Positions 1-26,096 of a DNA stretch of 44,169 bases are shown piece by piece. Each line of letters begins with the position of its first letter. Positions within the stretch are counted from its first letter, which is position 1. The notes beneath the pieces are model-generated. The model was given only the letters and a program-made list of their open reading frames with translations. It had not been told where the DNA came from and made no database searches. Made by a program: the position numbers and the translations under genes. Source of the DNA: a virus; the IMG/VR virus record IMGVR_UViG_3300022540_000315, positions 1 to 44,169 of that record; one strand, 5' to 3'.

Positions 1-2552
1 CCCATTGCTGATATCAGGATGGCATGCACGAGTTCAGGAGTGATGTCATCTTTTGTGGCCATCTCTACTGGTACTGGATATGACTTGATGCCGGGCTTGG
101 TCACAGTCTGCAGTTGATCCATGCGTTTCTTCTTGCTGGTTGTCTTGCCCTTTGATATGTACTCCACGTAGGTACCAGCAGGCACAAGCTGATCTTCACT
201 GATGTGAAGGTACGCCTGACCAGCACTGTGCCTCTTCCAGTCAACCAGCATCTTGGCCGCCTTCACATGCTTTGGTGTGGTCTTGGTGTACTCACTGATA
301 CGCTTGGTCATCTGGGTGGTAACCGCATAGTCTGAGATCTCGCCCTCTTTATCCCAGATCTTTTGGTAGTATTTCCTGACCACGGTTCTGAATACGTGTT
401 GTAGTGTATCGTGATTACAATATCCGTTGATACAGAGACCCTTGACTTCTTCTAAGCACTCATCGAAGCACCGTCTGACAATGGGGGGCACATTTCTCTT
501 CTTGCCCATGAGTCCCCTGATTGTAAGCTCATGTTTGTCATCAATGTAGAAGTAGTTCTTCTTACCACACATGACCATGACGATGGTGTGATACTCATGA
601 GCCAGTTCAATGTCCAGTGTATTCAGCGACCACTCTTCAAGCTCTTTGATCTGCTCAGTAGTTGCACCTACTAGACCCACTGAGTCAGTGTCACCGAAGA
701 TGATCTTAATACCCATGCTCTCGACCTTTGCCTTCAACTTCATCAGGGCGTCTCTTCCATATGCTGCAGTGCTCTCGCCAGCAGGCGGGCAGTACAGTCC
801 GAAGTGCTCATAACCTGTGACCCCGAAGCTTGCGTTGATGAACACTTTCAGTGCCTGTTCGACTGCTGATGCTTCTGGATCTGCCTTTGCTCTTGGCTTG
901 AAGACTGATAGCCTGATGTCCTTGACCAGACTGATCAACTTGGGCATGATGCCCTTGTATATCTTACAGGTGTAGTGGGTGAGAGATGGTACCCTGTTGT
1001 CCAGTGCGGCCTTACATTCAGTGTGACCACAGTTCATGGTCTCGAAGGATATGTTGTTGTTGCACATCACGGTGGGATACAGGGATGAGAAGTCCATGGT
1101 GTCGGTGTCGTAATGATCGCCAGCTTCTACTTCTAATATGGTGGCACCCTCGAATCCCTTACCTGCCTTGGATCTATCTGCTGACTCGATCTGACCGAAC
1201 ACTTTCAGTTCCTCACTGGTGGGGATGAGGATGTTTTGCTCTATCATGTAGCCTTGGAATAGATTCAGGATCTTAGATCCTATGGCGCGGTGAGCGGCAT
1301 CACCAAAGGTCTGTCTGCCCAGCCGCATGAACATGAGTATGATCTTGAGTGTGACCTCACTATCGAACTTGGTGAGTTCCATGGTCAAGTAGGAGTCCCA
1401 GTAGTTGTACCACACCAGATCACTGATGGCCATGTCAGATATCTCACCCTCGTATTTGTATTTCTCGAGTCCGAGCAGGGCCTTGGACACACCGCCCAGT
1501 TTCTTGGTGTCAAGGTACTTGTTCTTGTGCACGTAGTTCTTGATGACTGGCTGATCTAGGTGCACACATAGGTCGAGATGCAGCTTGTCATTGAAGTTAA
1601 TTTTCCACTCTCTGTATGTCTTGGACTTCCCACCCTTTCGAGTAGATGCTCTGATGCTGAGCCATGCTCTGAATGGTATCTCTCTGTCTTGGAAGTTGAG
1701 TTGCTTGGCCCTGTTATAGAGGTAAGGAAGATCGAACTCTCTCCCCCAGTAGGTGCAGATGAGAGGGTATCCCTGTTCGCCCATTCTTTGGAACACGTGT
1801 TCCAATAATTCTCCCTCACTGTCGCACATCTTTACCTTGATGTTGCCTTGTTGGATCTGTTCGGCCAGTGACTGGTTGCGCTTCACTTTGTTGTTGAAGG
1901 CTCTGACCTTGGCCTTGAGCACGAACACCGCAGCAGGGCGGTCATCTGAATAGACCACAGCGCATGAGATGATGGGTTCCAATGCCTCTCTCACATCAGG
2001 TATCACGTCACCCCTTGATAGGGTCTCTATGTCAATGGCCATTCTCTTGATGGTAGGTAGTGGTGCGAATGTCCACTGTAACAGTCGTGATCTCAGGTCG
2101 GGGTCATGATGGCTGAATTTGTTTGTCCATTTAGGATCTACGGGGATGGTGAGTGGTTTGTACAGGTTGTTGTAGGGCATGCCATAGAGCCAGCCCTTGT
2201 CGAAGGCGTGACGGTATATTCGTTTGATGTTGCCCTCATTGGATGTCACAAGCCGGTACTTGCCGACTGCTCTGGCCGATTTCATCCTGACCCTAGCAAC
2301 ATCGATCTCTTGTTTTTGTAACAGGTCGTACTGCTTTATGTGGTCAATGCCAAGTACGGTGCCTGCCCCCTTATTGCTCTTGATCGCCTGAAGGATCTCC
2401 TGATCTGTCATGCCCTTCTGTTTGAAACAGGAGTCGCTGTCGGATCTTGGGATGATCAACTTGTCTATCTCTTGACTAATGGTGTCCAAGAACCAGTAGT
2501 CGGGATTGTCTGTGTATTTGTTATACTTTGCACTTACTTGTACTTTGACCAT
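1..2552 (-). CDS. polB: Family B DNA polymerase (3' end outside window)
   Basis: Replicative DNA polymerase with 3'-5' proofreading. About 850 residues are visible and the frame stays open to the window edge, so the C-terminus (rest of the thumb) is missing. Exonuclease motifs are intact: Exo I DIETL at D174/E176, Exo II EFDLPYL with D274, Exo III YNYWD with D386. Polymerase motif A is DFSSLYPT (D487), motif B begins at K569 (KVFINASFG), and motif C is FGDTDS (D621/D623), so both activities should be functional. The ATG at 2552-2550 follows a GAGGT ribosome site about 8 bases upstream and overlaps the 3' end of the primase-helicase gene by 19 bases, so the two are probably co-transcribed and translationally coupled. 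Family assignment is secure from the motifs; subfamily (protein- or RNA-primed) is not, but the adjacent primase argues for RNA priming. Confidence 0.95.
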   Translation of the reverse strand, partial: MVKVQVSAKYNKYTDNPDYWFLDTISQEIDKLIIPRSDSDSCFKQKGMTDQEILQAIKSNKGAGTVLGIDHIKQYDLLQKQEIDVARVRMKSARAVGKYRLVTSNEGNIKRIYRHAFDKGWLYGMPYNNLYKPLTIPVDPKWTNKFSHHDPDLRSRLLQWTFAPLPTIKRMAIDIETLSRGDVIPDVREALEPIISCAVVYSDDRPAAVFVLKAKVRAFNNKVKRNQSLAEQIQQGNIKVKMCDSEGELLEHVFQRMGEQGYPLICTYWGREFDLPYLYNRAKQLNFQDREIPFRAWLSIRASTRKGGKSKTYREWKINFNDKLHLDLCVHLDQPVIKNYVHKNKYLDTKKLGGVSKALLGLEKYKYEGEISDMAISDLVWYNYWDSYLTMELTKFDSEVTLKIILMFMRLGRQTFGDAAHRAIGSKILNLFQGYMIEQNILIPTSEELKVFGQIESADRSKAGKGFEGATILEVEAGDHYDTDTMDFSSLYPTVMCNNNISFETMNCGHTECKAALDNRVPSLTHYTCKIYKGIMPKLISLVKDIRLSVFKPRAKADPEASAVEQALKVFINASFGVTGYEHFGLYCPPAGESTAAYGRDALMKLKAKVESMGIKIIFGDTDSVGLVGATTEQIKELEEWSLNTLDIELAHEYHTIVMVMCGKKNYFYIDDKHELTIRGLMGKKRNVPPIVRRCFDECLEEVKGLCINGYCNHDTLQHVFRTVVRKYYQKIWDKEGEISDYAVTTQMTKRISEYTKTTPKHVKAAKMLVDWKRHSAGQAYLHISEDQLVPAGTYVEYISKGKTTSKKKRMDQLQTVTKPGIKSYPVPVEMATKDDITPELVHAILISAM

Positions 2553-5500
2553 TGAAATAACCTCTGAACTCTATCTCGTGACTGTGGTGAATAGGTCTCG
2601 GTCACTGTGACCCCCAGATATTCTAGCAGTGCAAGAGAATCAGAAGAGAAGGCACCATCTAATTGGTTAGAATATGACCTCATCTTATCTCTCAATGTGT
2701 TCTCTGTGAGAGATCCACTGGTTCTCACTATGCCCGCTATGCGTATTAGAAATGGATCTACGATTGTGCCCGAGTTGATCCATATCTTGCCCACGCTGAT
2801 GACCAGATCAGATCTGGCCGTTGATGGTGTTGGATTGAATATGTGAGGCTTGGGTACCTCATCATCAAATGTCATTAGGTCCATTGCTGATTGGATGCCC
2901 ATCTTATCCCTTCTGTGACGGCCACCTGATACACCCCAACAATACACCACACTCTTGACCCTTACTTCTGGATCTTTTGATCTGCCTATTGCCTGATAGA
3001 AAGCAATCTTAGCGGATGTAGTGCCAAGTCTTCGGCCAAGTTCCTTGATGCTGAGGTCTATCAGGATGCCGTCAAGATGGAAATAGAATGCAAGCCAATC
3101 GTGGCTGCCCTTTGGTGGTGTGGGTGGGCATATTGTGATCATGACTCTGCGATCAGACTCTACTCCTATGGTCAAGTCCGATCTGTAATAGGTGAGTATC
3201 AGTCTCTTTGGTATGGCACCTTCCTTTCGCATGTTGTAGAGCCAATGAAATGTGAATATGTTCGGGGCGACCACCATGATGTTCTCGGCACCATGTGCAT
3301 CACCCACTGTAGATATGAATCGTAATAGATCCATCTGTAGGTTAGACCTCTTCAGTTTGTTGAAGAACAGATCAATGACATTGACATTCCGAGAGTCTGT
3401 GATCACCAGTTGTGTATCATTGGTGCCCCGTGGGTCACCCACTTCATAGTGATTGAATTTTATCTCAAAGAAGTCCATCATATTGACGTATGGGAGTGTG
3501 GCATCGGTGACGATCACTTGTTTGTCGTCTGCTCTGTCCACCTCACGAATGAAGTTCTTGATGTGTCGTGTGGCGGGTTCCACAATGAGTGACATGTCAA
3601 TGGGATTGAAGTTGGTTGGAATACTAGACATCATCCATTGTTGTTCTTTGAGCAGGAATAAGATGGCCTCAATGTTACTGAATGATATGTTTCTCTCGAG
3701 TGCGGCCTTCTCTATGATGTCGTGATATGCCGAGAAGTGCTCATTGAGTCTGTCTATGTCATCGGGATCCAGAAAGTTATCCATGCGCCTTGTCTTTTCA
3801 TCAATGAGTGGGTTCTCTAGGAAGTGTTCGTATTCAAAGATGAACTTCATTACATAGTCTTCAATGGACTGGGTGGTTTTCGAGTCCTTGTATTCTCGCA
3901 GTGTGATTATCTCTCTGTGTAACTCAAAGATCAGATTGTCAGCGTACTCTGCATACTTGGTTACCTTCTTGTTATTGGATGCACTCTTCCTGAGCAGCTT
4001 GATCGTCATGGCCGAGTGATTGGTGAGATGAGATACCTCATCCAAGAGCACCACGTCAAAGCACTCAAATAGTTCGTTCCTGATGAATGATGCTTGGTCT
4101 GAGTCAGTGGAGAACAGGGCAAACAGTTTGGAATAGGTGATGAACACTACATCCAGATCTCTGATGTGATTGTAGAGGGTAATGTAAGCGCAGGTGCCCT
4201 GACTGTGCTTGACGCTATCCTGATAGACTGTTATATCAGCGTCAATCATTGGCACTGGAATGTCATTGTTCATTATGGGGATAGGAAACTCCATTTCCCT
4301 GTACTTACATTTCTCACATGTAGGTTTAGAGTGATAACGCAATGCTGACCACGCCAGTGGCGCGGCCCATACAGGGTCGGCACTGGTACGCTTCTTACGC
4401 TTCACCTCTTCATTGAGAATGGTCAGTATAAGACAGGCATTCTTGTTGGCTGCGAACATGGCACCGTTGACTTCCACATCGAACTTGGTCTTACACAGGC
4501 TCACTGCCTTGACGAAGGTCTCCCTGCCGATCTTGTTTGTGGGAACCACCACTAGCATCTTTCTGCCTAGCATTTTGGCCATGGGAATCATGGTGGTTGT
4601 GAGACCAGCACGAGTGGCTTTCTTGACCACTAGATTCTGTCCTCGGAAGTTATCAAGTATGTCCATGCACTTACGCTGAATCTCAATGAAGCCTTCTGCT
4701 TCTTTCTCTTCTTCAGTGATGTGTTCTCGATAGTTCTGAAGTGGGTGGGTTCTCTTACAGATGGCACACATCTCTTCCGTGGCGATCTTCCACTCTGCTG
4801 ATGTGGGTTCGCCATGGAACTGAAGCTTTGTACATCTCATCATGGAATATGGCTTGGCTCGTGGGCCATAGACTTGTGGCATGTACTGCTCTAGTTTCTT
4901 CCTGTTGCCGGGCGCATTATCAAGTTCATCATTGACCTTGAATCTCATCAGGGTGCCGATTTCTTCTGGTGTGTAGCCTTTGTTGGCCAGCCATCTGACC
5001 CAGACGAATCTGCCCCAGAATATTCCCTTCTCTGTCTTGGTCTTTTGGTACCATATAGATACGCAGGGGGGCACCTCTTTCTCATCGCATGCCATCAGTG
5101 CGTCTAGCTGATCGATCTTGTACTGCATCACCTGAGTGAGTTCTTCTTCTGGTGCTGGTACATCTATGCGGTAGTACTTGCCATCACGATACTTCTCATC
5201 GTGGGTGGGTTTTGGAACCCCGGGCACCGATCCCTTTGGTAGAAGGTGTCTCTCGAACTGGAAGGGTGGGATAGTGTATTCGTGTATGATCATTTTCTCT
5301 CGGTGCATGTGTTCGAGTATCCAGTCTGCGTTCCACTCATCTATGGGAATTGCATAGTTAAAACGAGAGGGAATCTTCATGTTACGAGAGTAAGTCCACC
5401 TGATCATGTGACGGGTGTAGAACATGCCAAGGTCAACTGTGATCTCGGCCTTGATGCCATCAACAACGACAACTTTAGACCATCGGGTTACCCAAGGCTT

Positions 5501-6058
5501 CCAGATCTTCATGTTCTTGTCGTACTCATATGGATTGTGCCATCCGTCACAGTTCTCATCACATATGTGTGGTTCAGTGAGTTCGGGTTTGGCAGTAGCG
5601 GGCGCATGTTCGCATTTTGGAAATAGGTACTTGGCCACGGGTTCCATGCGCTTGGGGTTGATTCTCTTGTCGTATTTCTGGACTAGGTGTATGCCAGAGC
5701 CACTGATCTTGGCAAAGAACTGATACTCTGGGTTCTGCTCAAGCCATTTCTTTACAAAGTCTAGGGTGACGCGGATCTTGGACTCCCTTAGAATAAGTTG
5801 GTCGTGCTTATCCATGGCAGGGAGATCACCCAAGATCCTAGCGTCAAAGTCTAGTACGAAATAGGTATGCTGACTTCCAGAGGTGGATATGTGAAATGGG
5901 AGATCCCATCTAACACCGTCGGCTGCTATGCCATCACCGGGTACCCAGTACGACATCTTCTCGGAACCGGGTTTGGCATTGACATAGTAATCAGATCCTA
6001 TCATCCAAGGTTTGTTGACCAGTGCAATTCTGTCATAGATATGCAAGTCAAATGCCAT
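2534..6058 (-). CDS. AEP primase - Fe-S domain - XPD-like SF2 helicase fusion
   Basis: Predicted replication primase-helicase, 1174 aa. Residues 1-280 look like archaeo-eukaryotic primase (PriS fold): DFD at D70/D72, SGSGIH at 119-124, third acidic D209, followed by RWTYSRNMK; C149/C166/C170/H174 could be the PriS zinc site. Residues 330-440 start with PPC (C332), then C409, C431, C434, resembling the Fe-S domain of the primase large subunit PriL (inference). Residues 475-1050 are SF2 helicase-like: degenerate Walker A ATRAGLTT (481-488), DEVSH (673-677), TDATL (851-855), QAIGR (1022-1026). Cysteines C542, C581, C584 and C623, the last followed by AYITLYNHIRDLDVVF, match the Fe-S cluster region of XPD/DinG helicases. 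An upstream in-frame start at 6142 exists, but the TATA box at 6092-6099 predicts transcription from about 6070, favouring ATG 6058. The Walker A lysine is Leu486. Confidence 0.85.
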   Translation of the reverse strand: MAFDLHIYDRIALVNKPWMIGSDYYVNAKPGSEKMSYWVPGDGIAADGVRWDLPFHISTSGSQHTYFVLDFDARILGDLPAMDKHDQLILRESKIRVTLDFVKKWLEQNPEYQFFAKISGSGIHLVQKYDKRINPKRMEPVAKYLFPKCEHAPATAKPELTEPHICDENCDGWHNPYEYDKNMKIWKPWVTRWSKVVVVDGIKAEITVDLGMFYTRHMIRWTYSRNMKIPSRFNYAIPIDEWNADWILEHMHREKMIIHEYTIPPFQFERHLLPKGSVPGVPKPTHDEKYRDGKYYRIDVPAPEEELTQVMQYKIDQLDALMACDEKEVPPCVSIWYQKTKTEKGIFWGRFVWVRWLANKGYTPEEIGTLMRFKVNDELDNAPGNRKKLEQYMPQVYGPRAKPYSMMRCTKLQFHGEPTSAEWKIATEEMCAICKRTHPLQNYREHITEEEKEAEGFIEIQRKCMDILDNFRGQNLVVKKATRAGLTTTMIPMAKMLGRKMLVVVPTNKIGRETFVKAVSLCKTKFDVEVNGAMFAANKNACLILTILNEEVKRKKRTSADPVWAAPLAWSALRYHSKPTCEKCKYREMEFPIPIMNNDIPVPMIDADITVYQDSVKHSQGTCAYITLYNHIRDLDVVFITYSKLFALFSTDSDQASFIRNELFECFDVVLLDEVSHLTNHSAMTIKLLRKSASNNKKVTKYAEYADNLIFELHREIITLREYKDSKTTQSIEDYVMKFIFEYEHFLENPLIDEKTRRMDNFLDPDDIDRLNEHFSAYHDIIEKAALERNISFSNIEAILFLLKEQQWMMSSIPTNFNPIDMSLIVEPATRHIKNFIREVDRADDKQVIVTDATLPYVNMMDFFEIKFNHYEVGDPRGTNDTQLVITDSRNVNVIDLFFNKLKRSNLQMDLLRFISTVGDAHGAENIMVVAPNIFTFHWLYNMRKEGAIPKRLILTYYRSDLTIGVESDRRVMITICPPTPPKGSHDWLAFYFHLDGILIDLSIKELGRRLGTTSAKIAFYQAIGRSKDPEVRVKSVVYCWGVSGGRHRRDKMGIQSAMDLMTFDDEVPKPHIFNPTPSTARSDLVISVGKIWINSGTIVDPFLIRIAGIVRTSGSLTENTLRDKMRSYSNQLDGAFSSDSLALLEYLGVTVTETYSPQSRDRVQRLFQWSKYK

Positions 6059-6090
6059 GTTGCACGACCCATCATATCGTGGGCGGCGTG

Positions 6091-6102
6091 GAATATAAAC
6101 AC
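6091..6102 (-). promoter_or_regulatory. TATA box for the primase-helicase/polymerase operon
   Basis: On the minus strand this reads TTTATATT, a good archaeal TATA box. Transcription would start about 26 bases away, near 6070, giving an 11-12 base leader to ATG 6058. It forms the left half of a divergent promoter region with the plus-strand promoter at 6111-6147. Confidence 0.5.
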
Positions 6103-6110
6103 TATGCAAT

Positions 6111-6147
6111 CGGAAAGTATTTATCTGAACGGTAACAATCACAGGAG
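6111..6147 (+). promoter_or_regulatory. Promoter with shared ACGGTAACAA element
   Basis: A TATTTAT box (6118-6124) is followed by ACGGTAACAA (6129-6138) and a predicted transcript start near 6147, giving a leader of about 50 bases before ATG 6198. The GAAAGT...TTTAT...CTGA...ACGGTAACAA arrangement recurs at 16814-16850, and the element recurs inverted at 14282-14292. Within the leader, GGTGTTA occurs twice (about 6163 and 6188), a possible extra operator. Promoter function is inferred from spacing. Confidence 0.5.
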
Positions 6148-6197
6148 TGCATCAGTTAGTTCTGGTGTTAGAAACACTGTTAACTCAGGTGTTAAAA

Positions 6198-7871
6198 ATG
6201 TCATTAAATCCAAATGATCCGCGGCTTGAAGAGCCACTGTCAAGCTTCACACTGACCGATGCGGTAAATGTGGCAAAGGCGATGGTACATCCAGACTACG
6301 CTTCTTTTGTGACTCCGGTAACCATCAAGCCTACATATGAACACCCTGTTCGCAGCTCATATCCCATAAGGATCTGCAAGAACTACTTCGAGCAGGCTGC
6401 GAAGGCAGAGAAACGAAAACAGTCCATGAACACATGGGATGGATACTTTCTTGGTGGCCGTGACATCCTCACGGCAAAGAATAACTTTGATCCAGCCAGA
6501 GTCAATGGCCAGAGAACATTGATCTATCGACTGGACACTGGGCAACTAGCAGAGGCAACAGTATGGGGATCTGGGCCGGGAGATGAAGGCAACAAGGTGC
6601 CACTACCGTTCTGGCATGTTCTGTCTATGAAAGTAGAAGAGAACGAGTTCAAGCGCAAGTCTGGTGAGACCGACATTGGTTACACCATGTCATACCTTGA
6701 CAAGTCGGAACCACTGTCATCTGAAACCATCATAGGCCAGATCGCCAAGATTGCACTGCCAGTCAGCGCACTTGATCGGGAGTCACATCTATACGCACCC
6801 GTGATCGTCACTGGTAAGCTTGGCAGTTTCAGAACCATCGAAGAGTGGGAAGAGACAGGCAATCTGGTACCAGTGCTGGATGCTGATCGGAATCCTGTAA
6901 TAGATCCGAAGACCGGCATGGTACAGATGCGACCCGAGAGAATGCCGACTGCTGAAGGACAGCCACTCATTCAATCAAGGATAGACAATCCAGAGAAGAG
7001 CATCTATACCTTTGGTGGTAATATTAGGCCAATAGATGATGATGACAAGAGTGACAATCGCCTCAAATTCAAGTTCTTGAACAAGAGGTTGGGCAATCAC
7101 TTTGTGAATCTTCCCATCATTGACCAGATATTCACAGATGCCGTCAGGATGGGTGCTAGTTCATCAGAAGATGCTATCGGACACTTGACCAACACCTATG
7201 CAGGAACTGAGGTGTTAGTAGCTGGAGTAATCACTCGTTTTTACCGAGACGAAGAGAGAGAGATCAACTGGATCGACATGGAAGCAACTATGCTCGTTCC
7301 ATTAGGTTTCTCTACCGGAAAAGTTGAACAGGTGGTCACCACATCAGCTCCAACTCCTGCGCCTCAGCCTGCACCCCCTACACCCCTTGACGTGGAAGCG
7401 GCACGTGTAGAGGAAGTGATAGCAGCAGCAACCGATCCCGGGGCACCGCCAGTGGCTCAACCAGCAGCCATTCCCAAACCCGCGCAGAAGACGGATGTGA
7501 CTGTTGATTCGCTGAAGGCCATTGTGCTGGAAGGCAGAGAACTGTACGGTCCTACTCTGACACTGAAAGAGTTGGAGAGCCTACGGATCTTGCCACAACA
7601 CATGACAGGGGCTGATGGTAAGTTGCTATCAGATCATGTCAAACTGGTCAATCATGTGATTGGAATTGTTGCCAAGGAATATGGTGACTCACCCGTTGGT
7701 GCGGCTGGTAGTACAGGCACACCCGTTACTGACACACCAGCAGTAGAGAAGGTGCCCGGTGCTGCGGCACCTCAGATGGAACCAATCGTCTGCAACAAGT
7801 GTAAAATGACCTTACAACCAAGTGAGGTACTTACACACTCACAGGTTTGCACAGGCAAGCCAGCAGAGTAG
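6198..7871 (+). CDS. Putative ssDNA-binding / replication accessory protein with C-terminal zinc finger
   Basis: 557 aa, first gene of a plus-strand recombination operon. The N-terminal 380 residues have no motif I can name with certainty; a late segment (around VLVAGVITRFYRDEEREIN) looks like OB-fold beta strands. Next comes a Pro/Ala-rich flexible linker (about 390-440), a small helical region (about 445-505), another low-complexity stretch, and a C2HC zinc finger (C532, C535, H547, C551). A binding domain plus linker plus small terminal domain, next to a Sak4-like ATPase, fits an SSB/RPA-like protein, but that is inference. Start chosen at ATG 6198 because AGGTG lies 6 bases upstream; a longer in-frame GTG at 6147 has no such site and coincides with the predicted transcript start. 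Confidence 0.5.
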   Translation: MSLNPNDPRLEEPLSSFTLTDAVNVAKAMVHPDYASFVTPVTIKPTYEHPVRSSYPIRICKNYFEQAAKAEKRKQSMNTWDGYFLGGRDILTAKNNFDPARVNGQRTLIYRLDTGQLAEATVWGSGPGDEGNKVPLPFWHVLSMKVEENEFKRKSGETDIGYTMSYLDKSEPLSSETIIGQIAKIALPVSALDRESHLYAPVIVTGKLGSFRTIEEWEETGNLVPVLDADRNPVIDPKTGMVQMRPERMPTAEGQPLIQSRIDNPEKSIYTFGGNIRPIDDDDKSDNRLKFKFLNKRLGNHFVNLPIIDQIFTDAVRMGASSSEDAIGHLTNTYAGTEVLVAGVITRFYRDEEREINWIDMEATMLVPLGFSTGKVEQVVTTSAPTPAPQPAPPTPLDVEAARVEEVIAAATDPGAPPVAQPAAIPKPAQKTDVTVDSLKAIVLEGRELYGPTLTLKELESLRILPQHMTGADGKLLSDHVKLVNHVIGIVAKEYGDSPVGAAGSTGTPVTDTPAVEKVPGAAAPQMEPIVCNKCKMTLQPSEVLTHSQVCTGKPAE

Positions 7872-13106: not shown

Positions 13107-14198
13107 TCATGATAGTTGTGACCAAGTGGCCACTTTCTCATCAACACGGTCACGTTCAAACAGATTGGCTGCTTTCCATGCACCAATTGCTGGTGCTACA
13201 ACCCCATCTGTGGGGCTGACCATGGTGATCCTGCTGGATATGCCGCCGCTCTGTACTAGGTTGTCATAGACAGCCTGTGTGAATCCGGGCATGTTGGTCA
13301 TGCCACCTACAAGTGCTAGATAACCTTTGCCTTCGATCTGAAGGGCGTTGACGGCTGCAAGGTTTGTAGTCCTTGCCTCTCTCAAGAATCCTCTGATCCT
13401 ATTGGTGACATCGTTGATGTAGGAATCAACGATCTTTCTGATTGTGGCACCCTTGATGGTCTCTTGGGTGAGTGATGATTCTCTAGTGAGTTCAGCATGT
13501 ATTCCATCGTTGGTGGTATAGTTGTACCTCTCTTTGATCTGTCGTGCCTGATTCTCAGTGGCCGACAGACCACGATATCCCATCTCTATGGCATTCACCA
13601 ATCGACGGTCAATGTTGGATCCACCGAATGTCCACACTGCCTTGTCTATCTCATCAATACCCGAGAAGAATATGGTCTCAAGTGTTGATGAACCAAAGTT
13701 AATGGATAGCACCTGTGTTTCAAGTGCCTTCTTGATGGGTAGTACGCCCAGTGCGGCTGCCCAAGCCTCACCCATGAACTCTATTCCAATCTTGCCCTGT
13801 GGGAGTGTCCGAAGTGTGTGCTTCAGGGCCTCAAGACCCTCTGCGTACTCGATCATGGGCAAACAAAACACAATGCCCGTTTTCTTTGGAATGTCTTTCA
13901 GCAGCCAAGCGGCAAACTCTTTGATGTACATGCAGGAGTCTGTCAGGCTCATTTCCCTATCATTTCGTGGTGCCCCATGTAGCAACGGGAACACTGCATT
14001 GTGATAGGGTTCTGCATTCTTAGAGAATGCGTACTTGTAGTCTTCAGGCTTCAGAAGTTCCTTTGGCACCTTTCTCAAGCATGTAAGCTCGATCCTAGGT
14101 TTCTCACCAACAGGTACCCCGTAACTGACAGTCCATTTACTACCAAGTTTAACACCAATGGTATTATCATAGACGATCAAACCTTTGTCTTCACTCAA
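13107..14198 (-). CDS. Actin/Hsp70-superfamily ATPase
   Basis: 363 aa, the usual size for bacterial and archaeal actins (MreB, ParM, Alp). Order of elements: phosphate 1 region VYDNTIGVKLG (9-19), connect 1 GEAWAAALG (143-151), phosphate 2 INFGSSTLET (166-175), GGSNIDRRL (192-200), and adenosine motif GGMTNMPG (298-305). The loops are degenerate: phosphate 1 lacks the usual DxGT pattern and phosphate 2 has Asn where Asp is expected, so nucleotide turnover may be altered. The start is TTG 14198 with GGTGAGG about 8 bases upstream. First gene of the operon leading to the terminase; roles could be filament-based DNA positioning, partition, or a chaperone-like function. Confidence 0.8.
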   Translation of the reverse strand: MSEDKGLIVYDNTIGVKLGSKWTVSYGVPVGEKPRIELTCLRKVPKELLKPEDYKYAFSKNAEPYHNAVFPLLHGAPRNDREMSLTDSCMYIKEFAAWLLKDIPKKTGIVFCLPMIEYAEGLEALKHTLRTLPQGKIGIEFMGEAWAAALGVLPIKKALETQVLSINFGSSTLETIFFSGIDEIDKAVWTFGGSNIDRRLVNAIEMGYRGLSATENQARQIKERYNYTTNDGIHAELTRESSLTQETIKGATIRKIVDSYINDVTNRIRGFLREARTTNLAAVNALQIEGKGYLALVGGMTNMPGFTQAVYDNLVQSGGISSRITMVSPTDGVVAPAIGAWKAANLFERDRVDEKVATWSQLS

Positions 14199-14301: not shown

Positions 14302-15804
14302 ATGATTACAATGGAGTTGGCAATAAAAATCGGGGACAGGTACTCTACTTTTCACACTGATGACAGGAGCATTGCGAAGGTCATCAGGGAAGAGTGCAGC
14401 TTCGAGAAGAAGGACTGGCAGTTCGCCCGAGAGAAGTGGATCAAGAAGGCCAGAGCCAATGGCGACGACTGGCAGTTAGAGAGAGCACTTGAATGGGATG
14501 GTACCATATCACTGTTACAGGGAAATGCCTTCCCCACGGGGCTGATGGAAAAGGTATTGCTGAGATTGATGCTTGATCCTATACCAATCGCTATCCACTC
14601 TGATCTTGTCGAACCAAAGAGGTTAGGCCCGCCCCTTGAGATGACGGCCAAGTTCGAGCACAGGCAGTACCAGACAGATGCCTTCAATGCGGCCATGAAT
14701 AAGGATGTGAGGGGTATTATCAAGTCACCCACGGGATCTGGAAAGACCATCATGGGTGCCATGCTGATCGCCCACTTGCACGTACCCACTCTGATACTTG
14801 TAGATAAGGTGATACTGATCAAACAGTGGATGGATGCCCTCAATGAGATGATCAAAATACCAAGGAACTATGTGGGTCGGGCACAGGGCAAGAACTTCGA
14901 GCCTAGCATCATCACCGTGGCATCAGTACAGTCACTGATGAGCTGGAAGAAGAGGAAGAAGGATGAGTACAAGATGCTCATGGATCTACACCCTGATGGA
15001 TGGGGCATGATCATAGAGGATGAGTGTCATCACTTGGGTGCTGATGGAAGATACAATGTCAGCATGTCCATACCTGCATATCACAGACTTGGGTTCAGTG
15101 CCACCCCGCTAGACAGAATGGATGCCAATCTGAGGGTCATGGCTGCCACAGGGCCTATGATCTACGAGCTACCTGCTGAGGATCTGATAGGTCAGGGCAT
15201 GTTGGCCAAGCCCATAATCAAGTTTCAACCCGTTGACATTCTGATATACGATCAGTTTGAGAAATACATTGACGTGTACAGGTCAGCCATAGTGCGTAAC
15301 ACCAAGCGGAACACAGAGATAGTGAGGATTGTCAAAGAACATGCCATGCAGAGAAAGAAGGTACTGGTGTTCGTTGACTTCATTGAACATGGTGAGATAC
15401 TGGAATCCATGTTACAGTTGCAGCAAGTGATACGAATTGACGATCATCCGGGCATGGAGTCCGCATTCGTGCACGGTGAGGACACTGGTAGAGATTGGAA
15501 GTTCAGTTCATTCAAGAGTCCTGATGGCATACTCAATGTGCTGGTATCAACCGAGGGTCTGATCGGTGAGGGCTTTGACATGAAGAATCTTGATGTCATA
15601 GTGCTGGCCGATGGTGGTAAGTCTGCCATTCAGACCATCCAGAAGCTGGGCAGGGGTCTCCGTGTGATGAAGGACAAGAAAGAGGTCTTGATCTTTGACT
15701 TTGCTGACAGGTGTAAGTACCTCAGCGATCATGCCAGAGAGAGATTGAAGGTCTGGCGTAGTGTTGGCTTCGAGGCCGAGGTGCCAGAGTACATGGAGGA
15801 CTGA
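14302..15804 (+). CDS. SF2 DNA helicase, UvsW/XPB-like
   Basis: 500 aa. After an N-terminal domain of about 115 residues there is a Q-motif-like RQYQTDAF, Walker A SPTGSGKT (K148), DECHH (240-244), SATP (266-269), and motif VI TIQKLGRGLR near residue 450. This is the arrangement of UvsW, XPB and RecG-like viral helicases that remodel branched DNA, reverse forks and open R-loops; all catalytic residues are present. No ribosome site precedes ATG 14302, agreeing with a leaderless transcript from the promoter at 14274-14292. A second ATG at 14311 is possible. It heads an operon of small genes ending in a Cas4-like nuclease. Confidence 0.9.
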   Translation: MITMELAIKIGDRYSTFHTDDRSIAKVIREECSFEKKDWQFAREKWIKKARANGDDWQLERALEWDGTISLLQGNAFPTGLMEKVLLRLMLDPIPIAIHSDLVEPKRLGPPLEMTAKFEHRQYQTDAFNAAMNKDVRGIIKSPTGSGKTIMGAMLIAHLHVPTLILVDKVILIKQWMDALNEMIKIPRNYVGRAQGKNFEPSIITVASVQSLMSWKKRKKDEYKMLMDLHPDGWGMIIEDECHHLGADGRYNVSMSIPAYHRLGFSATPLDRMDANLRVMAATGPMIYELPAEDLIGQGMLAKPIIKFQPVDILIYDQFEKYIDVYRSAIVRNTKRNTEIVRIVKEHAMQRKKVLVFVDFIEHGEILESMLQLQQVIRIDDHPGMESAFVHGEDTGRDWKFSSFKSPDGILNVLVSTEGLIGEGFDMKNLDVIVLADGGKSAIQTIQKLGRGLRVMKDKKEVLIFDFADRCKYLSDHARERLKVWRSVGFEAEVPEYMED

Positions 15805-19107: not shown

Positions 19108-21318
19108 TTATGCACTCTCCAGAGTGTCTATTCTGCTCTCTAGCTCTTCAATCTTTGTCATTAAGGTGTCATTCTCATCCTTCAGTTTACCCACGGCCTG
19201 AATCAGCACAACTTGGGCCTTGTTGATGGAATAGGATTTCTCATGCTCGAAGTCTTCATCACTGTACCCATCTGCGTAGTTGCCTACTTTCACATCCTTC
19301 TTCAGTCTTTCATCATAGACTTCTCTGGCCCCTGCTTTCTCATAGCCAGACTTAAGGATATATCCGCTTTCCCATCTGAGATTTCCTTTTGCGTCTTTCA
19401 CCTTACACTTTACTCTGGTTCTCACCCAGTCATCCAGATTGTCGTAGTCTGTCTCATATACATCGCCGGGCAGGTGCCTGAACTTAGCAATAGTGGCGAG
19501 AGGATTTGCATAATGTTTCCAGCTTGAAACATTGTTCCAGTTGTCTGCATAACACTCATCCCATGCTAGGATGTTCGTGCCCATGTCGTAGAGTTTGTGT
19601 ACTAGAAATGGGTCAAGATCAGTTGAAAATGGCATAATGGCGTCAATGCTATCTGTACCGTCAAAGGAAATCACGACAGCCCCAGAAGCATCTCTGATGT
19701 CATTCCCATCGATCCTAATGTCGCCATTTATGGTGACAGTCGAACCAAGAGTGATTCGGGTCGTTCCACCAGAGTCCTTGATGTCATTACCATCGATCCG
19801 AATGTCACCATTGAAGGTGGTGGTAGAACCAACGGTGATCCGTGTAGTTCCAACAGAGTCAAGAATAGTGTTACCGTCAAGCTTAACCCATCCACCGACT
19901 GTAAGATTGGTTCCACAGTTTATGAGTCCTGTTGTGCCAAATGCAACAATTTGTGGCGTGGAACTCCAAGCACCACCGTCAGCACCATCTCCAAGAAGCA
20001 ACTCGTTTGTTGCACCACCACTGGGTACATGCTTGTAACCGGCCGCGTTGGAATGAACTACTTGCCCAGAAGTGTTGACTGACATTGCCCCCGTGCCACT
20101 CACTGCAACCGTGCCTGTGGTATTGGGGAATGTATAGGTCTTGTCGCCACCAGACAGAGATGCAGTTGTGACGATGCCATCAGATGCGCCTGCAGAGTTC
20201 AGGTAGATCTGGTTAGTGGTATCACTGAGTGTGATCTTGTCAGCAGTGACATCGTTCCCATTCAGTGTCACCCCGCCCACGGTTGCAGACCCCGCAATAC
20301 TGGATCCTGTTTCTTCTGCTGTAATCTTACCCTTCACTAATACATTCAGTTTACCAGCACCAGAGTTTTCAAATGTAGCAATCTGGTCTGCTGCGTTTGC
20401 CAAGGTGATAGATGCACCAGTAGTAGCAAGGGTTATTGTAGATAGATCGCCTATGCTCAGGGCACCTGATATGTCGGTGGTAGTGAGGGTCATTGATGCC
20501 ACATCAAGCTGGGTAGTGACATCGATATTGGGCACAAAGAGGGTACTGTTAGTAGTGGAATCTGCTCTCAGATCCACATAGTTTGATGCGCCGCTGTACA
20601 GTCTTATGGCCGTGGTGTCGTTACCGTAGATGATGAGCTTCTTGGGAATGCCTGACGTGAAGAATGTGGAGTCACCACCATATACCTCTAAGGACTGTTC
20701 GACAGTGCCTGTCTGTGTGATGGTAAGTACTGCTACTGTGCCGGCATCTGTGTCACCACTGAATGTGACAGGTGGTGAGAGTGAGGTGTTTGACGATCTG
20801 AGATCGGTCAGGGATATCCAATTGTAGGGAGTAGTGGGCCAATTATCTACTTCTGCATATGCAAGTGTGATGTACTTGTCGTCATTGGACTCTGGTGATT
20901 CCGATGCCTCGGCAATGTATGAATGGTCGTCGGTTGACACAACATATTTGATTCTGACATAATAATATCCATCTGCAGTTACCCCTGCTCTTACTCCTGT
21001 TTCATCTTCTATTGATCCGTCACCAGTCCTGATGAAACGCCTTCCTCCTATGTCAGCAACTCCTTTCTTAAGCCAAAGATCGCCAGCAGGAACACTAATC
21101 TCAAGACTGTCAGTAGGTGTCCATCCTGAGAGACCCCAGTCACTGTCGGAAGAGATTGCTTTATTGATCACCTGTGGGGTGTGTAGGGCTTCTCTTCTAT
21201 AATCGAACTCTTGCTGAACGTTATACTCCAGACTTCCTATATCACCCAGCTTGAAGTGTTCTACCTTCACGGTTGCGCCGGGAGTAATGCTGATTACATC
21301 CATGTTGTCCTTTGCCAT
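19108..21318 (-). CDS. Tail fibre with C-terminal chaperone-like domain
   Basis: 736 aa. Residues 1-150 look like a virion attachment domain. A long Gly/Thr/Ser-rich beta-helical shaft follows, with about three copies of a 28-residue repeat near residues 470-555 (core DGNxIxDSxGTTRITxGST), also visible as an 84-base DNA repeat at about 19680-19900. The C-terminus has an aromatic-rich domain, then INKAQVVLIQAVGKLKDEND and a coiled coil, as in S74-type intramolecular chaperones, although I do not see a clear catalytic Ser/Lys dyad. ATG 21318 overlaps the upstream stop (TAATG) with GGTGATC before it. Probable receptor-binding fibre. Confidence 0.75.
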   Translation of the reverse strand: MAKDNMDVISITPGATVKVEHFKLGDIGSLEYNVQQEFDYRREALHTPQVINKAISSDSDWGLSGWTPTDSLEISVPAGDLWLKKGVADIGGRRFIRTGDGSIEDETGVRAGVTADGYYYVRIKYVVSTDDHSYIAEASESPESNDDKYITLAYAEVDNWPTTPYNWISLTDLRSSNTSLSPPVTFSGDTDAGTVAVLTITQTGTVEQSLEVYGGDSTFFTSGIPKKLIIYGNDTTAIRLYSGASNYVDLRADSTTNSTLFVPNIDVTTQLDVASMTLTTTDISGALSIGDLSTITLATTGASITLANAADQIATFENSGAGKLNVLVKGKITAEETGSSIAGSATVGGVTLNGNDVTADKITLSDTTNQIYLNSAGASDGIVTTASLSGGDKTYTFPNTTGTVAVSGTGAMSVNTSGQVVHSNAAGYKHVPSGGATNELLLGDGADGGAWSSTPQIVAFGTTGLINCGTNLTVGGWVKLDGNTILDSVGTTRITVGSTTTFNGDIRIDGNDIKDSGGTTRITLGSTVTINGDIRIDGNDIRDASGAVVISFDGTDSIDAIMPFSTDLDPFLVHKLYDMGTNILAWDECYADNWNNVSSWKHYANPLATIAKFRHLPGDVYETDYDNLDDWVRTRVKCKVKDAKGNLRWESGYILKSGYEKAGAREVYDERLKKDVKVGNYADGYSDEDFEHEKSYSINKAQVVLIQAVGKLKDENDTLMTKIEELESRIDTLESA

Positions 21319-22802
21319 TAGATCACCACATTCATTTCGTCAAAGTAAGCGGTCTGTACCGCATGAGTGCCAGTTTGATCTATGCAGCCAAAGCCCGGTC
21401 TTCCATATCTGATGTCAGACCAAGCATCCACATCACTGATGAGTAGTACATTGTCCACATAAAACCTTGCTGAGTTGCCCCGCATATCAACCCTGAGATG
21501 GTAATTGGTTGCAGTATCAATTGTCACTGCTACTCCACCCAGTCCCGTTGGCCTCTCGGTAAGTGATGTTGCACTATGATCCCAGTAGTAGCAATATGCC
21601 CTGTCGTCATTGGCTGAGATACCAAATATGTAGCAGTCGTACTGATCAGTTCCACTGGCCTGCCATCTGGTGACAACCCCCGCCATCTGATTTACAGTGC
21701 CTGTTACATCGCGGACATAACCAGTCACCTGATAGTCTCCCCATTCACCATCGAAATCAGAGTTGTCGATCACACTGAGTCCATCTGCATAGTCGGGCGT
21801 TGTGCTGTCATCGTACTTGTATTCACCGCCTGTCACAGACCAATCCCCAATGCTGCTGGTGCCCGGTTTAGTAGTACCACTCTGTGGCACAACTGTCTGT
21901 CTTGCCCAGTTGTCATCATTCGTGCCAAATGCCTCATCCACAAGGTATCCGAGATATCCTGTCACGCCCTCTGCCTTTGCAAGATTGAGTGACTTTTTGA
22001 GATTATAGGCCCCATATGTTGGAAACACACTGTAGTCTTCCGTCTTAAAGATCACATAGAATGTTGCGGGTTGATTCACAAACGAGAAGTATCTTGCAAT
22101 ATTACTACTGGCACCATCATCATAGACATAGACCATACTGGCATCTGATGGGTTATAATCATAGTAGGATGTCTGTTCCCACAGTTCCTCTATGGTGGGG
22201 GTCTTACCAGTCATTCTCTCCATCAGTGAGATGATGGACTCAGGAGTACCTGAACTCAGAAATGTTGACAGGAACTCTTGCAGCCTTGATCTGAAGCTCA
22301 GATCGGACTCACCATCGAACCTTGTGGTATCATACCAACCCCCAAGCAGATCAAGCTCTTCACCTGTGGATGTTGACAATGCCATGCTTCTTACTGCCTT
22401 TTCCCTCTTCTTGTACGATCTGTAGATCTGTGTACCAAATGCTGTGACAACGGATGTCAGCACTGAGTCTGTCCCAATGAATGGATAGATAGAACTCTTG
22501 ATGGTTGACTCTGGTCTCTTCTCGTACACATATGTGATCCAGAACGGAATGTACTCGTATCCAAGCACAGGTGGGGGCACTGCGGGCAGATCGCCAGTGC
22601 CAAGCCAGTAGAGTTTGTCACCTCTCTGCTCGTAGTCAGTACCATTATCAAACATGTGATGTACTGATCCAGAGTCTAGGGTCTTGAACCCTCTCACGTA
22701 GAGTATCTTGTACCCACAGTAATTGAGCACCTTGAGTTGATACTCACTCACTCCCGAACTGTAGTGATGGAGTTCTTCTTGCACTATTTCCATGTGGCTC
22801 AC
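21318..22802 (-). CDS. Tail protein I-like baseplate protein with LamG-like domain
   Basis: 494 aa. Residues 110-300 contain STGEELDLLGGWYDTTRF and SFRSRLQEFLSTFLSSGTP, typical of baseplate proteins following gpJ (P2 gpI type), which attach fibres. Residues 300-494 form a beta-jelly-roll like LamG/concanavalin domains (DWSVTGGEYKYDD, YHLRVDMRGNSARFYVDN, RPGFG), a probable sugar-binding module. GTG 22802 overlaps the baseplate J stop (GTGA); ATG 22793 is an alternative. The fusion of a fibre-docking protein to a lectin-like domain suggests direct host-surface binding. Confidence 0.75.
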   Translation of the reverse strand: MSHMEIVQEELHHYSSGVSEYQLKVLNYCGYKILYVRGFKTLDSGSVHHMFDNGTDYEQRGDKLYWLGTGDLPAVPPPVLGYEYIPFWITYVYEKRPESTIKSSIYPFIGTDSVLTSVVTAFGTQIYRSYKKREKAVRSMALSTSTGEELDLLGGWYDTTRFDGESDLSFRSRLQEFLSTFLSSGTPESIISLMERMTGKTPTIEELWEQTSYYDYNPSDASMVYVYDDGASSNIARYFSFVNQPATFYVIFKTEDYSVFPTYGAYNLKKSLNLAKAEGVTGYLGYLVDEAFGTNDDNWARQTVVPQSGTTKPGTSSIGDWSVTGGEYKYDDSTTPDYADGLSVIDNSDFDGEWGDYQVTGYVRDVTGTVNQMAGVVTRWQASGTDQYDCYIFGISANDDRAYCYYWDHSATSLTERPTGLGGVAVTIDTATNYHLRVDMRGNSARFYVDNVLLISDVDAWSDIRYGRPGFGCIDQTGTHAVQTAYFDEMNVVI

Positions 22803-25147
22803 TCATACTGTGCTGTTACATCCATCTCAGTTCCAGTGGCATCAGTGTCCGCTTTCACAATATAACCACTGTTGACCGCGATCACATTCCATCCGCCTGT
22901 TGCGCTGTCCCAGTCCCACCATGGTGATGAGTCATGTGGTGGATAATCTGCCACACCGGCGTCAGAAGGATCATCGTAACCCTCTACCGTGATGCTTGTC
23001 ATGTCCACATAGGACACACCATCCACTGCCTCTACTATGGTGATCAGTTCGGATTCGTGTATGTCATCGCCCACACTGAATGAGTTTATCCAACTGATCA
23101 TGGCAGCCTCGACATCAGTCTCTACTGTTGCTAGGACATAACCCTCATCCTGTGGCACATTGACCGTCATGCCTATTGCAATGTACACTGGTATTGGGCC
23201 ATCGACAGTCACCTGAATGCCCGCAGCTCTTGCCAGTTCCACCGCGGCGATCACCTCAGACTCCTTCGCTGCTGATAACACACCCGCAGCAGACCATGCG
23301 AAGATCTCAACCTCACCAACACTAATAGAGGCATCAGTTGAATAGTCGTCAACCGTGGTGCCCGCAATACCATCTACCGATAACACTGCGGATCTTAGGG
23401 CGGCAAGAGTGCCCTTGGCTGAGGCTGTGACGCCGCTCTTTATCCTGATCTTGTAATTATCATCAACCTCAACGTCTGACCCGTCAACGAATTGATTGTT
23501 CCATGTGTAGTCCATGAGCAAGTCAGAAGCATCATAGAGTGGCCACAGTAGTTCAAGAGCATCACCATCTACTGAATACTGGGTTGCTTTTCCAGACCCT
23601 GCAGTAGCCATTGGTACGTATCCGAACCTGAGTTTCTTGGTACCATCTGATCCGTAAGTTGATTCCCAAGAAGCAAGACCCGCAGTATATGAAAAATGGG
23701 TTCTGTCATACGCACTTATATTTGTCATCTCATTACGTGTCCAACTGGCTCTCTGGTCTGAACCCCACGATCCACTGTCATATACATATATGGTGTCATA
23801 GGCATCATCATTGGCGTAGAGGGCAGTGAATCCTGAGTCAACACGATCTCCTACGGCCTGACCAGTGGTGTTGCCCACAATGTAACCTGCTGTCCTTGGG
23901 CACTGTATTCTAACGGTCCTTGTATCAAGTCCACCACTTGCCCCAGAGAAAGTGATATAGTAAATGTAAGTGAAGTCAATACCTGCACTGTCATAAGGCC
24001 CAGCAGCCCCGGGCACTGTAATGGTATCTGATATAAGATCTCCATCTGCTGATGAATACCCAACAATGGTCACGGTTCCAACCCATGTATCAGGACTAAT
24101 GGTTACTCTTACTTCCCCCGCAGAAAGTGGTTGTGACATCCATCCTCTGACATCCTCATTGGCCACTTCTATGGCCTTTCCATCAGCATCCTTGTCAACA
24201 AAACCACTGCTATCTACAGAGTGTGCCAGAGTGAACACTTGTGCGGTTCCAGTACCAGTGACTGACTCATCTGAGGCGTCAAAGTTAGATGGATTGGTGA
24301 TGTTCGTGATCACGGTATTGGCATTCACATTTCTTATGATGGCATCGCTTGACACGTTACCGCTTATGCCGGGGTTGATGGCCTGTACTGCAATCCATTT
24401 CTTTTCATAGTCATCATGGGTGGCATCGGACACCTTGGCATCGGTCTCAGTGTTGGCCATCTGGGCTGCCACAGTGGTCTCAAATGTCACAGCAGATGTG
24501 CCGGATGCCCCAATAGTACTGATCTGTGTGCCCACGGGAATGGTGACGATACCAGATGTCAAGTTTGCGGGCCTGCTCATGGTGACATATCCTGCTGTGC
24601 TGACGGCATCGTTCCTCGTGACGCCTACGATCTCACCAAGTTCATCCAGTTCAAGGCCGTCTGCTGAGTCAATGAAACTATCTCTTGCCACATCGTTGAG
24701 CTTCAGTTCTACGAGCCTGATCTGCAGAGCACAGGCATCGATGATGGTACTGAGCACAGACCCACCACTGACATCAGTGAGGCCGCTGGCCACAATGAGG
24801 TACCTGTAATCCACGTAGAACACGGTGCCGTCATCAGGATCGTCACCTGTTGGACTCCATGATATGCTGTCATAGTAACCATCACCAGTCTGATCTGCAA
24901 GTATGTAGTCAGCTTGAAATGTGAAAGTGGTCTCTATGCCATCCATTATGCCGACCACGCGCAAGATGTCATACGCCTTCTTGGGATCGGTGTTGTCACA
25001 GTACAGGGTATAGACATCGGTTCCACTGGCGTAGGTTATGGCCTCTTCCCACACTGGTCTGTAGCCGCTGACGATCTGATCCAGCATCTGGCTCTTGATC
25101 TCTTCGGTGGTTCTCAGGTTTGGGATTTGATACTCACTCATTGTCAT
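22799..25147 (-). CDS. Baseplate wedge protein, gpJ/gp6 family
   Basis: 782 aa, far longer than P2 gpJ (about 300). The core is recognised by SFIDSADGLELDELGEIVGV, a following VPVGTQIS-like strand region, and C-terminal segments such as VEVAMISW-type helices with IHESELITIVEAVDGVSYV. Two extra beta-rich blocks (about 40-115 and 295-500) account for the length. ATG 25147 overlaps the gp25 stop (ATGA); ATG 25141 has better spacing from GAGGG. It forms the baseplate wedge with gp25 and the tail protein I homologue, as in other contractile injection systems. Confidence 0.85.
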   Translation of the reverse strand: MTMSEYQIPNLRTTEEIKSQMLDQIVSGYRPVWEEAITYASGTDVYTLYCDNTDPKKAYDILRVVGIMDGIETTFTFQADYILADQTGDGYYDSISWSPTGDDPDDGTVFYVDYRYLIVASGLTDVSGGSVLSTIIDACALQIRLVELKLNDVARDSFIDSADGLELDELGEIVGVTRNDAVSTAGYVTMSRPANLTSGIVTIPVGTQISTIGASGTSAVTFETTVAAQMANTETDAKVSDATHDDYEKKWIAVQAINPGISGNVSSDAIIRNVNANTVITNITNPSNFDASDESVTGTGTAQVFTLAHSVDSSGFVDKDADGKAIEVANEDVRGWMSQPLSAGEVRVTISPDTWVGTVTIVGYSSADGDLISDTITVPGAAGPYDSAGIDFTYIYYITFSGASGGLDTRTVRIQCPRTAGYIVGNTTGQAVGDRVDSGFTALYANDDAYDTIYVYDSGSWGSDQRASWTRNEMTNISAYDRTHFSYTAGLASWESTYGSDGTKKLRFGYVPMATAGSGKATQYSVDGDALELLWPLYDASDLLMDYTWNNQFVDGSDVEVDDNYKIRIKSGVTASAKGTLAALRSAVLSVDGIAGTTVDDYSTDASISVGEVEIFAWSAAGVLSAAKESEVIAAVELARAAGIQVTVDGPIPVYIAIGMTVNVPQDEGYVLATVETDVEAAMISWINSFSVGDDIHESELITIVEAVDGVSYVDMTSITVEGYDDPSDAGVADYPPHDSSPWWDWDSATGGWNVIAVNSGYIVKADTDATGTEMDVTAQYE

Positions 25148-25539
25148 ACCCTCAATGAATATTCTATGTTGGTAGAAGTGGCAGTATTGATGCCAATCAC
25201 AGTGAATGATATGTGAAGCTCATCGTTGTCGTAATTGACCTCAATGTTATCAACGGAGACCTGCCGTGTCTCTTTCATCAGAGCCTCACCGATCATCATG
25301 CGGGCAAGATACTCGTTCTCTTTTCTCTGGCCCTTGCCCATGAGCTGTGACAGTCGGCTACCGAACTCTGGCTGTAATGGTAGTGACCCTATTGGTGTTC
25401 TTAAACGCAAAAGAATGGCCTGAGCCAGATTCCGGTTTCCTTCGACTGTAGAGATGTCAGTCCTGTCGGTATCAATGTCCGACAGATCAAAGTTCATCTT
25501 GAGATCCCTACCGATGAGATCAACATCATTCTGGCTCAC
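25144..25539 (-). CDS. Baseplate wedge protein, gp25/gpW-like
   Basis: 131 aa, normal for the family. RNLAQAILLRLRTPIGSLPLQ, then PEFGSRLSQLMG, is the gp25 signature (RTxxGxxPxxPxFG), with the usual following helix and C-terminal beta hairpin. GTG 25539 has GGTGA four bases upstream. It nucleates sheath and wedge assembly. It lies behind an intergenic region with its own probable promoter (ATATTTCAA-like sequence near 25582-25593). Confidence 0.9.
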   Translation of the reverse strand: MSQNDVDLIGRDLKMNFDLSDIDTDRTDISTVEGNRNLAQAILLRLRTPIGSLPLQPEFGSRLSQLMGKGQRKENEYLARMMIGEALMKETRQVSVDNIEVNYDNDELHISFTVIGINTATSTNIEYSLRV

Positions 25540-25722
25540 GCGGTCACCACACTAAGTTGCTTGTTGAAATAGTCGATGCGTGGATATTTCAATATTACGT
25601 TGCCAATGACTGGCAAGGTTAAATGTCTATCTCACTACTTCTGGCCACCATTTCTCATTTCCCAAGGGAACCAAGAAGATTTATGTGAGTAATGTTCATC
25701 AGACTATCAGGTGATTCAATCA
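25540..25722. promoter_or_regulatory. Divergent intergenic region with perfect inverted repeat
   Basis: Between the minus gp25 gene and a plus membrane gene. TTGCCA (25600-25605) and TGGCAA (25611-25616) form a perfect 6-base inverted repeat with a 5-base spacer, just upstream of the AT-rich TATA-like sequence at 25582-25593 (minus). A TATA-like GATTTATG at about 25678-25685 (plus) is placed to start transcription near 25708. The layout suggests a repressor or activator site controlling one or both genes. Confidence 0.45.
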
Positions 25723-26061
25723 ATGCTAGACACATTCGGATTCCCGACCTTCCAACTTGGCATGATTGCTTGGATTCTTGGAACTCTGTGGACACTACTT
25801 CTACCATTCTACCTGAAAATAAGGAAAGGAGAACTCACATGGGGCGACTTCAACTACGGCTATCTGGTGAACTTCTTCACCACCATAGCGATTGGTATAT
25901 TCGCTGGTCTGCTCGTGTTTGAGATGTGGACAATACCACTAGAAGTTGATTGGCTGGTATTTGTCATTAGCTTCTTGACAGCAGCTGGAATGGATGACAC
26001 TGTTCTGAAAGAACTCTTCAAGTGGCTAGGTCTGTACGAGAGGCTTAAGAAGAGAAGTTAA
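25723..26061 (+). CDS. Small multi-span membrane protein, holin candidate
   Basis: 112 aa with three hydrophobic stretches: LGMIAWILGTLWTLLLPFYL, LVNFFTTIAIGIFAGLLVF and VDWLVFVISFLTAAGM, then a basic C-terminus (ERLKKRS). GGTGA 8 bases before ATG 25723 supports this start; the longer GTG at 25711 overlaps that site. It is the only plus-strand gene inside the late module and is convergent with another membrane protein. Size and topology fit a holin, but no family was recognised. Confidence 0.65.
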   Translation: MLDTFGFPTFQLGMIAWILGTLWTLLLPFYLKIRKGELTWGDFNYGYLVNFFTTIAIGIFAGLLVFEMWTIPLEVDWLVFVISFLTAAGMDDTVLKELFKWLGLYERLKKRS

Positions 26062-26096
26062 TCTCGCCCAATGTTGAGGTGACGATCTTCGTTGCT

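Follow-up and report, generated by a model that had tools for sequence, protein, structure and literature searches.

In the IMG/VR virus record IMGVR_UViG_3300022540_000315 we identified a minus-strand gene whose product joins three modules in one chain: a PriS-like archaeo-eukaryotic primase (AEP) domain, a domain resembling the C-terminal iron-sulfur (Fe-S) domain of PriL, and a superfamily 2 (SF2) module of the XPD/DinG type. The window analyzed here is the whole record of 44,169 bases. We are highly confident of the PriS-PriL-XPD architecture itself, which is held alike by our favored functional reading and by a rival in which the helicase is active. The favored reading, which we consider fairly probable, is that the protein is a replicative primase whose chain includes its own PriL-like initiation module together with a single-stranded DNA (ssDNA) module, derived from XPD, that grips the template.

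The fusion gene and its relatives

2534-6142, minus strand: open reading frame of the fusion protein (1202 amino acids from a GTG start at 6142; 1174 amino acids from an ATG start at 6058)

Residues are numbered here from the ATG at 6058, as in the initial annotation of this DNA. The interval of 2534-6058 proposed there holds, but its strand had been omitted; the gene lies on the minus strand, and the plus-strand counterpart of the interval contains many stops.

The fusion family has seven members, comprising the window protein and six relatives on independent virus contigs (L290, L293, L009, L292, L291, and L294). Identity to the window protein is 54% for L290, 49% for the partial L293, and 33% for L009, with L009, L292, L291, and L294 all at about 30–33%. 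L293 is truncated at its contig end, just past the start of the PriL-like part, and the other five relatives are full-length. The three-part order is the same in all full-length members. Since the architecture recurs in six relatives on independent contigs, it is not an accident of chance, assembly, or gene calling.

With regard to how the relatives were found, single-protein scans of viral contigs, phages, plasmids, and genomes with the fusion protein or the neighboring family B DNA polymerase (PolB) as query retrieved no relatives. L009 (contig 3300033149_002633), which encodes a full-length homologue, was reached via family alignment of PolB. A degenerate DNA pattern for helicase motif I, TRAG[LV]TTT, found L290, L292, and L291 (L244, L273, and L258, respectively), and a fusion-family alignment search added L293 and L294. 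A search with the pattern ICPPTPP returned mainly chance matches and was set aside. In two PolB relatives, L006 and L007, nothing matched the fusion protein. Genome and plasmid collections yielded no relatives at limited sensitivity, the cellular-genome scans seeing exact short peptides only, and Pfam, NCBIfam, and PHROGs returned no confident match for the fusion protein.

Across the six full-length members, 133 of the 1174 window residues are invariant, compared with 7 of the 17 cysteines (P = 0.0015). The invariant cysteines (C332, C409, C434, C542, C581, C584, and C623) are all among the eight named in the initial annotation (Fisher P = 0.0004). Its residue positions were all correct, both in the N-terminal part (D70/D72, SGSGIH at 119-124, D209, C332 within PPC, C409, C431, and C434) and in the second cysteine set (C542, C581, C584, and C623), as was motif II, DEVS, at 673-676. 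The fusion-gene region is under purifying selection, with a dN of 0.04 and a dS of 0.57 between L290 and L293 in the primase part.

Primase, PriL-like, and XPD-like domains

5222-5899, minus strand: PriS-like AEP domain, residues about 54-279, with D70xD72, S119GSGIH124, and D209 (from VIA-align Z and invariant residues)
5537-5614, minus strand: zinc-knuckle-like insert, residues 149-174, with C149..H164.C166...C170 (from the alignment)
4733-5146, minus strand: PriL C-terminal Fe-S-like domain, residues about 305-442, with C332, C409, and C431/C434 (from VIA-align and hhalign)
2768-4711, minus strand: XPD/DinG-like SF2 module, residues about 450-1097 (from Foldseek and VIA-align)
4190-4435, minus strand: XPD-type four-cysteine insertion between motifs I and II, with C542, C581, C584, and C623 (invariant in 6/6 full-length members)

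In the AEP domain, D70, D72, S119, G120, G122, D209, and R220 are invariant in the family and the acidic triad (DxD...D) is present, while the histidine of SxH occurs in the window protein, L290, and L293 and is a tyrosine in the four other members. The Cys/His insert, which is like the zinc knuckle of PriS, is kept in the window subgroup and L294, kept partly in L291, and missing from L009 and L292. An AlphaFold2 model of residues 1-452 built from the seven sequences had a mean predicted local distance difference test score (pLDDT) of 69.8, near 90 in the core. Residues 1-279 of the window protein matched Prim-PolC (6sa1; VIA-align Z 12.1), the LigD polymerase domain (10.9), human Pri1 (6r4t; 9.2), and Pyrococcus PriS (8.6). 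The highest Foldseek ranks for this part went to RepB', the LigD polymerase domain, the pRN1 primase, and CRISPR Prim-Pol, with a best E of 0.024.

Residues 310-433 matched the C-terminal domain of Xenopus PRIM2 (8g9l_B, 277-391) with Z 7.4 and a root-mean-square deviation of 2.7 over 91 residues; 5f0q and 3q36 were also matched, although a Z below 8 is by itself modest. Using hhalign, the N-terminal family profile aligned with a haloarchaeal tailed-virus PriS-PriL family, that of the hafunavirus protein HRTV-27 gp62, from AEP motif III to the PriL cysteine region (probability 75.7%, E 2.4e-5), whereas the same profile against PolB as a control gave 0.2%. The PriL-like layout of four cysteines proposed initially stands in part: C332, C409, and C434 are fixed in the family, but C431 is not. 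This fourth cysteine shifts, being C431 in the window, L290, and L294 and lying near 439 in L009, L291, L292, and L294.

For the C-terminal part, SF2 proteins of the XPD/DinG type were the only significant fold matches in the PDB. Specifically, all 22 Foldseek matches at E<=1e-3 were to XPD, TFIIH-XPD, DinG, or CasDinG (best 2.4e-10). Many SF2 proteins tied near Z 14 in VIA-align, and among them XPD (8rev_A) could be aligned over the most residues (444, Z 13.9). A C-terminal match to D5 or superfamily 3 (SF3), which the initial annotation had named as evidence against its own reading, was indicated neither by the fold search nor by the Pfam scan, in which no SF3 family appeared and Herpes_ori_bp had no match.

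These fold matches also bear on the idea that the protein is an origin-binding or initiator protein of AEP-UL9-like type, whose SF2 part recognizes the viral origin. Mobile elements do have AEPs fused to distant herpes UL9-like SF2 modules (PMC5862659), and the 'DEXDc helicase-primase' of Bodo saltans virus was a weaker structural match. However, fold matches favor XPD/DinG by many orders of magnitude, Herpes_ori_bp was not matched, and the four-cysteine insert is of the XPD type, which makes an origin-binding role highly improbable.

Taken together, the fold comparison and the family alignment support the initial three-domain reading (AEP, PriL-like Fe-S domain, and XPD/DinG-type SF2 module). 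In the structure-prediction check proposed for it, the XPD/DinG match was significant, but the PriS and PriL C-terminal parts were recovered by VIA-align Z, with Foldseek E above 0.001. Several observations weigh against the favored interpretation. The full-length model has a mean pLDDT of 56.6, with moderate or low model confidence overall, and in both models much of the sequence around the two cysteine sets scores below 50. All N-terminal Foldseek E-values exceed 0.001, so that support there comes from VIA-align Z and motifs. Sequence-based detection was weak, Pfam DEAD_2 being matched by 2 of 7 members with an E of 0.0054 at best, and hhalign against single-sequence E. coli DinG was uninformative (1.3%).

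Altered motor motifs and the replication genes

4592-4621, minus strand: degenerate motif I, KATRAGLTTT, residues 480-489 (Walker A lysine replaced by leucine; by valine in others)
4031-4042, minus strand: motif II, DEVS, residues 673-676 (from the alignment)
3491-3508, minus strand: motif III, TDATLP, residues 851-856 (from the alignment)
2969-2995, minus strand: motif VI-like QAIGRSKDP, residues 1022-1030 (second arginine of QxxGRxxR replaced)

In SF1 and SF2 helicases the Walker A lysine touches the nucleotide phosphates, and its mutation normally abolishes activity. Instead of the Walker A GK[ST], all six full-length members read TR[AC]G[LV]T[TS], with KATRAGLTTT in the window protein and forms such as KTTRAGVTTT and KSTRCGVTTS elsewhere in the family. 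Motif VI likewise reads QxIGRxKdP rather than QxxGRxxR, the second arginine being absent. The 'SF2 helicase motifs' of the initial annotation are thus borne out for motifs II and III but not for the lysine of motif I or the second arginine of motif VI. A sequencing error behind the lysine loss was ruled out: the frame is intact, the codons are GGT CTC ACA, and the five other full-length members are alike. L290, L292, and L291 are not independent proof of the loss, since the motif I pattern found them; it is seen independently in the window, L009, and L294, which were found without that pattern.

Motif Ia, the DE of motif II, TDAT.P of motif III, QxIGR of motif VI, and the four Fe-S-type cysteines persist in the family, and K480, T482, R483, G485, T487, and T488 of motif I are invariant. 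Because the flanking motif I residues, motifs II and III, and QxIGR are kept, the nucleotide site is changed but maintained rather than drifting. We infer that ATP use by the module is lost or altered; it is XPD-like by descent, with an ATP-driven helicase function that is doubtful and perhaps absent. We class the fusion protein as a putative AEP-type primase related to XPD/DinG but, since the two defining motor features were looked for and are lacking, not as an XPD/DinG helicase. The module descends from XPD/DinG-type helicases, and the loss of the canonical Walker A lysine and of the second motif VI arginine makes it probable that it now serves as a clamp for ssDNA whose ATPase activity is low or altered.

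Nonetheless, the conserved K480 and R483 might restore ATP use, which counts against the favored reading. In the corresponding alternative, the protein is a true primase-helicase, an active 5'-3' Fe-S helicase in which K480 or R483 (KxTRxGxT) takes over from the Walker A lysine and which serves as the replicative helicase of the virus with its own primase. The strong conservation of KxTRxGxTT, which would be superfluous in a dead ATP site, and the retention of motifs II, III, Ia, and the GR of VI are in line with this proposal. Searches of the seven records, some of them fragments, also gave no match to MCM or DnaB_C, with working positive controls. DNA_primase_S (PF01896) had no match there either, with its positive control working, but this model misses the fusion protein too, so that a divergent second primase may be present. 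However, the lysine that is normally essential in SF1 and SF2 is absent and the second motif VI arginine is also gone, and we regard an active helicase as unlikely.

The genes around the fusion gene are as follows.

3-2552, minus strand: PolB, running off the window (NCBIfam NF004417, E 1.6e-141)
14302-15804: XPB/UvsW-like SF2 helicase with an intact P-loop (NCBIfam XPB, E 4e-33)
13107-14198: salactin-like actin homologue (PF25229, E 7e-27)
36642-38903: tail sheath (contractile tail)

In the window, PolB and the end of the fusion gene share 19 bases, and PolB lies directly downstream of the fusion gene in all six loci that reach far enough. It is closest to NCBIfam PRK05761 models and, among phages, to haloviruses. 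The XPB/UvsW-like helicase immediately follows PolB in L291 and L294, placing an XPD-like and an XPB-like protein in one replication module, and the same region of the window holds a RadA/Sak4-like ATPase and a Cas4-like nuclease.

XPD is known as a lesion-verifying helicase, and the fusion protein could instead be a repair or restart enzyme, with PrimPol-like repriming at lesions or gaps and a damage-sensing XPD-like Fe-S module, rather than the main replicative primase. In VIA-align its AEP part matches repair-type domains best, namely those of Prim-PolC and the LigD polymerase, and the XPB-like helicase and Cas4-like nuclease lie close by. Against this, PolB adjoins the gene, no second PF01896-type primase was matched in the seven records, and a PriL-like C-terminal domain is typical of initiating primases. 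We therefore consider a repair role improbable.

For the favored replicative primase, we infer the Fe-S content, all activities, and the division of labor. The PriS-like domain would synthesize the primer, while the PriL-like domain alongside would hold the template and the initiating nucleotide in the manner of PriL. The XPD-like Fe-S module would hold or track the template strand once it is unwound at the fork, offering it to the primase, and PolB, the product of the next gene, would extend the primer. Unwinding would be supplied by the host MCM or by the separate XPB/UvsW-like helicase with its intact P-loop. In favor of this scheme we count the single architecture of the seven members, their domain folds, the homology to PriS-PriL of haloarchaeal tailed viruses, the seven invariant cysteines, the loss of the Walker A lysine, the downstream position of PolB, and the lack of a match to MCM, DnaB_C, or DNA_primase_S in the seven records, together with PolpTN2 of the Thermococcus nautili plasmid pTN2, a PriS-PriL fusion that lacks the catalytic histidine and still primes for PolB in vitro (PMC3973330).

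The affinities of PolB and the salactin-like actin suggest an archaeal host, and the window virus and its relatives form a group of probable archaeal contractile-tailed viruses. A salactin-like actin gene is also conserved near TerL in L290 and L293. At 6147-7871, divergently transcribed from the primase gene, lies a 574-amino-acid protein with a C-terminal CxxC...H...C, perhaps a viral ssDNA-binding protein; it has homologues in L290, L293, and, weakly, L294. The related virus G003 (L276 = 20001-40000, L278 = 60001-79254) encodes a response regulator (L276:11251-12108), a PAS/HATPase two-component protein (L278:13158-14654), and what may be two glycosyltransferases. A tRNA-Trp gene is found at L302:18035-18111 on the related virus contig G010.

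Known systems and implications

In viruses, the usual fusion partner of an AEP is an SF3 or other AAA+/RecA helicase. The claim of a new architecture in the initial annotation needs narrowing, as PriS-PriL and AEP-SF2 fusions are each known (PMC3973330, PMC7414124, and PMC5862659), but the triple with an XPD-like module was not found: the open-access literature searched gave no description of a PriS-PriL-XPD fusion.

PolpTN2 shares PriS-like and PriL-like parts in one chain, predicted Fe-S cysteines, and a missing histidine, as in four members of our family. It differs in having PriCT-1 and a C-terminal winged helix (PMC5862659) and no helicase motifs, its helicase being a separate SF1 protein. 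Our protein does not group with the PolpTN2-like family of helicase-free PriS-PriL chains that end in a winged helix, as residues 450-1097 match XPD/DinG. The hafunavirus primase HRTV-27 gp62 is another tailed-virus protein that, by annotation, combines a PriS region at its N terminus with a PriL region at its C terminus; however, it is 413 amino acids long without an XPD-like part, and the next gene, gp63, encodes a separate P-loop protein (TGPASTGKT). The fused PriS-PriL of DPANN archaea similarly carries both primase subunits in one chain (PMC7414124) but is cellular and without a helicase module.

Among helicase-linked AEPs, the All3500 type of mobile elements likewise has an SF2-related module after its AEP, but this SF2 part is related to UL9 or pVOG1685/9714, and the passages of PMC5862659 consulted describe neither a PriL Fe-S domain nor an XPD-type cysteine set. 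Phage 1706 GP55 (SF3 helicase-AEP-PolB) is likewise a viral chain of helicase and AEP linked to PolB, but has an SF3 helicase, no PriL-like domain, and PolB in the same chain (PMC12205980). With the XPD/DinG/Rad3 family our proteins share the fold and the four cysteines between motifs I and II, but they lack the canonical Walker A lysine and second motif VI arginine and are joined to a primase.

A chain of the PriS-PriL-XPD type would amount to an archaeal-type primase complete in itself, its Fe-S grip on the template included, and would offer a small system for studying the role of the Fe-S cluster in primase initiation and hand-off, a debated matter. With the XPB-like helicase nearby, these viruses also bring XPD- and XPB-type proteins together in one replication module, outside TFIIH. 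We further propose, at slightly less than an even chance, that in a family of viral primases an XPD-type Fe-S helicase has become a template clamp that works without ATP or is powered in an unusual way, a natural pseudo-helicase whose lysine-free P-loop is strongly selected. If the clamp reading is true, a single chain would have one Fe-S domain in its primer-initiation module and a second in its ssDNA grip, and an XPD-type fold with a conserved P-loop that lacks the lysine would be a testable case of a helicase domain repurposed in virus evolution.

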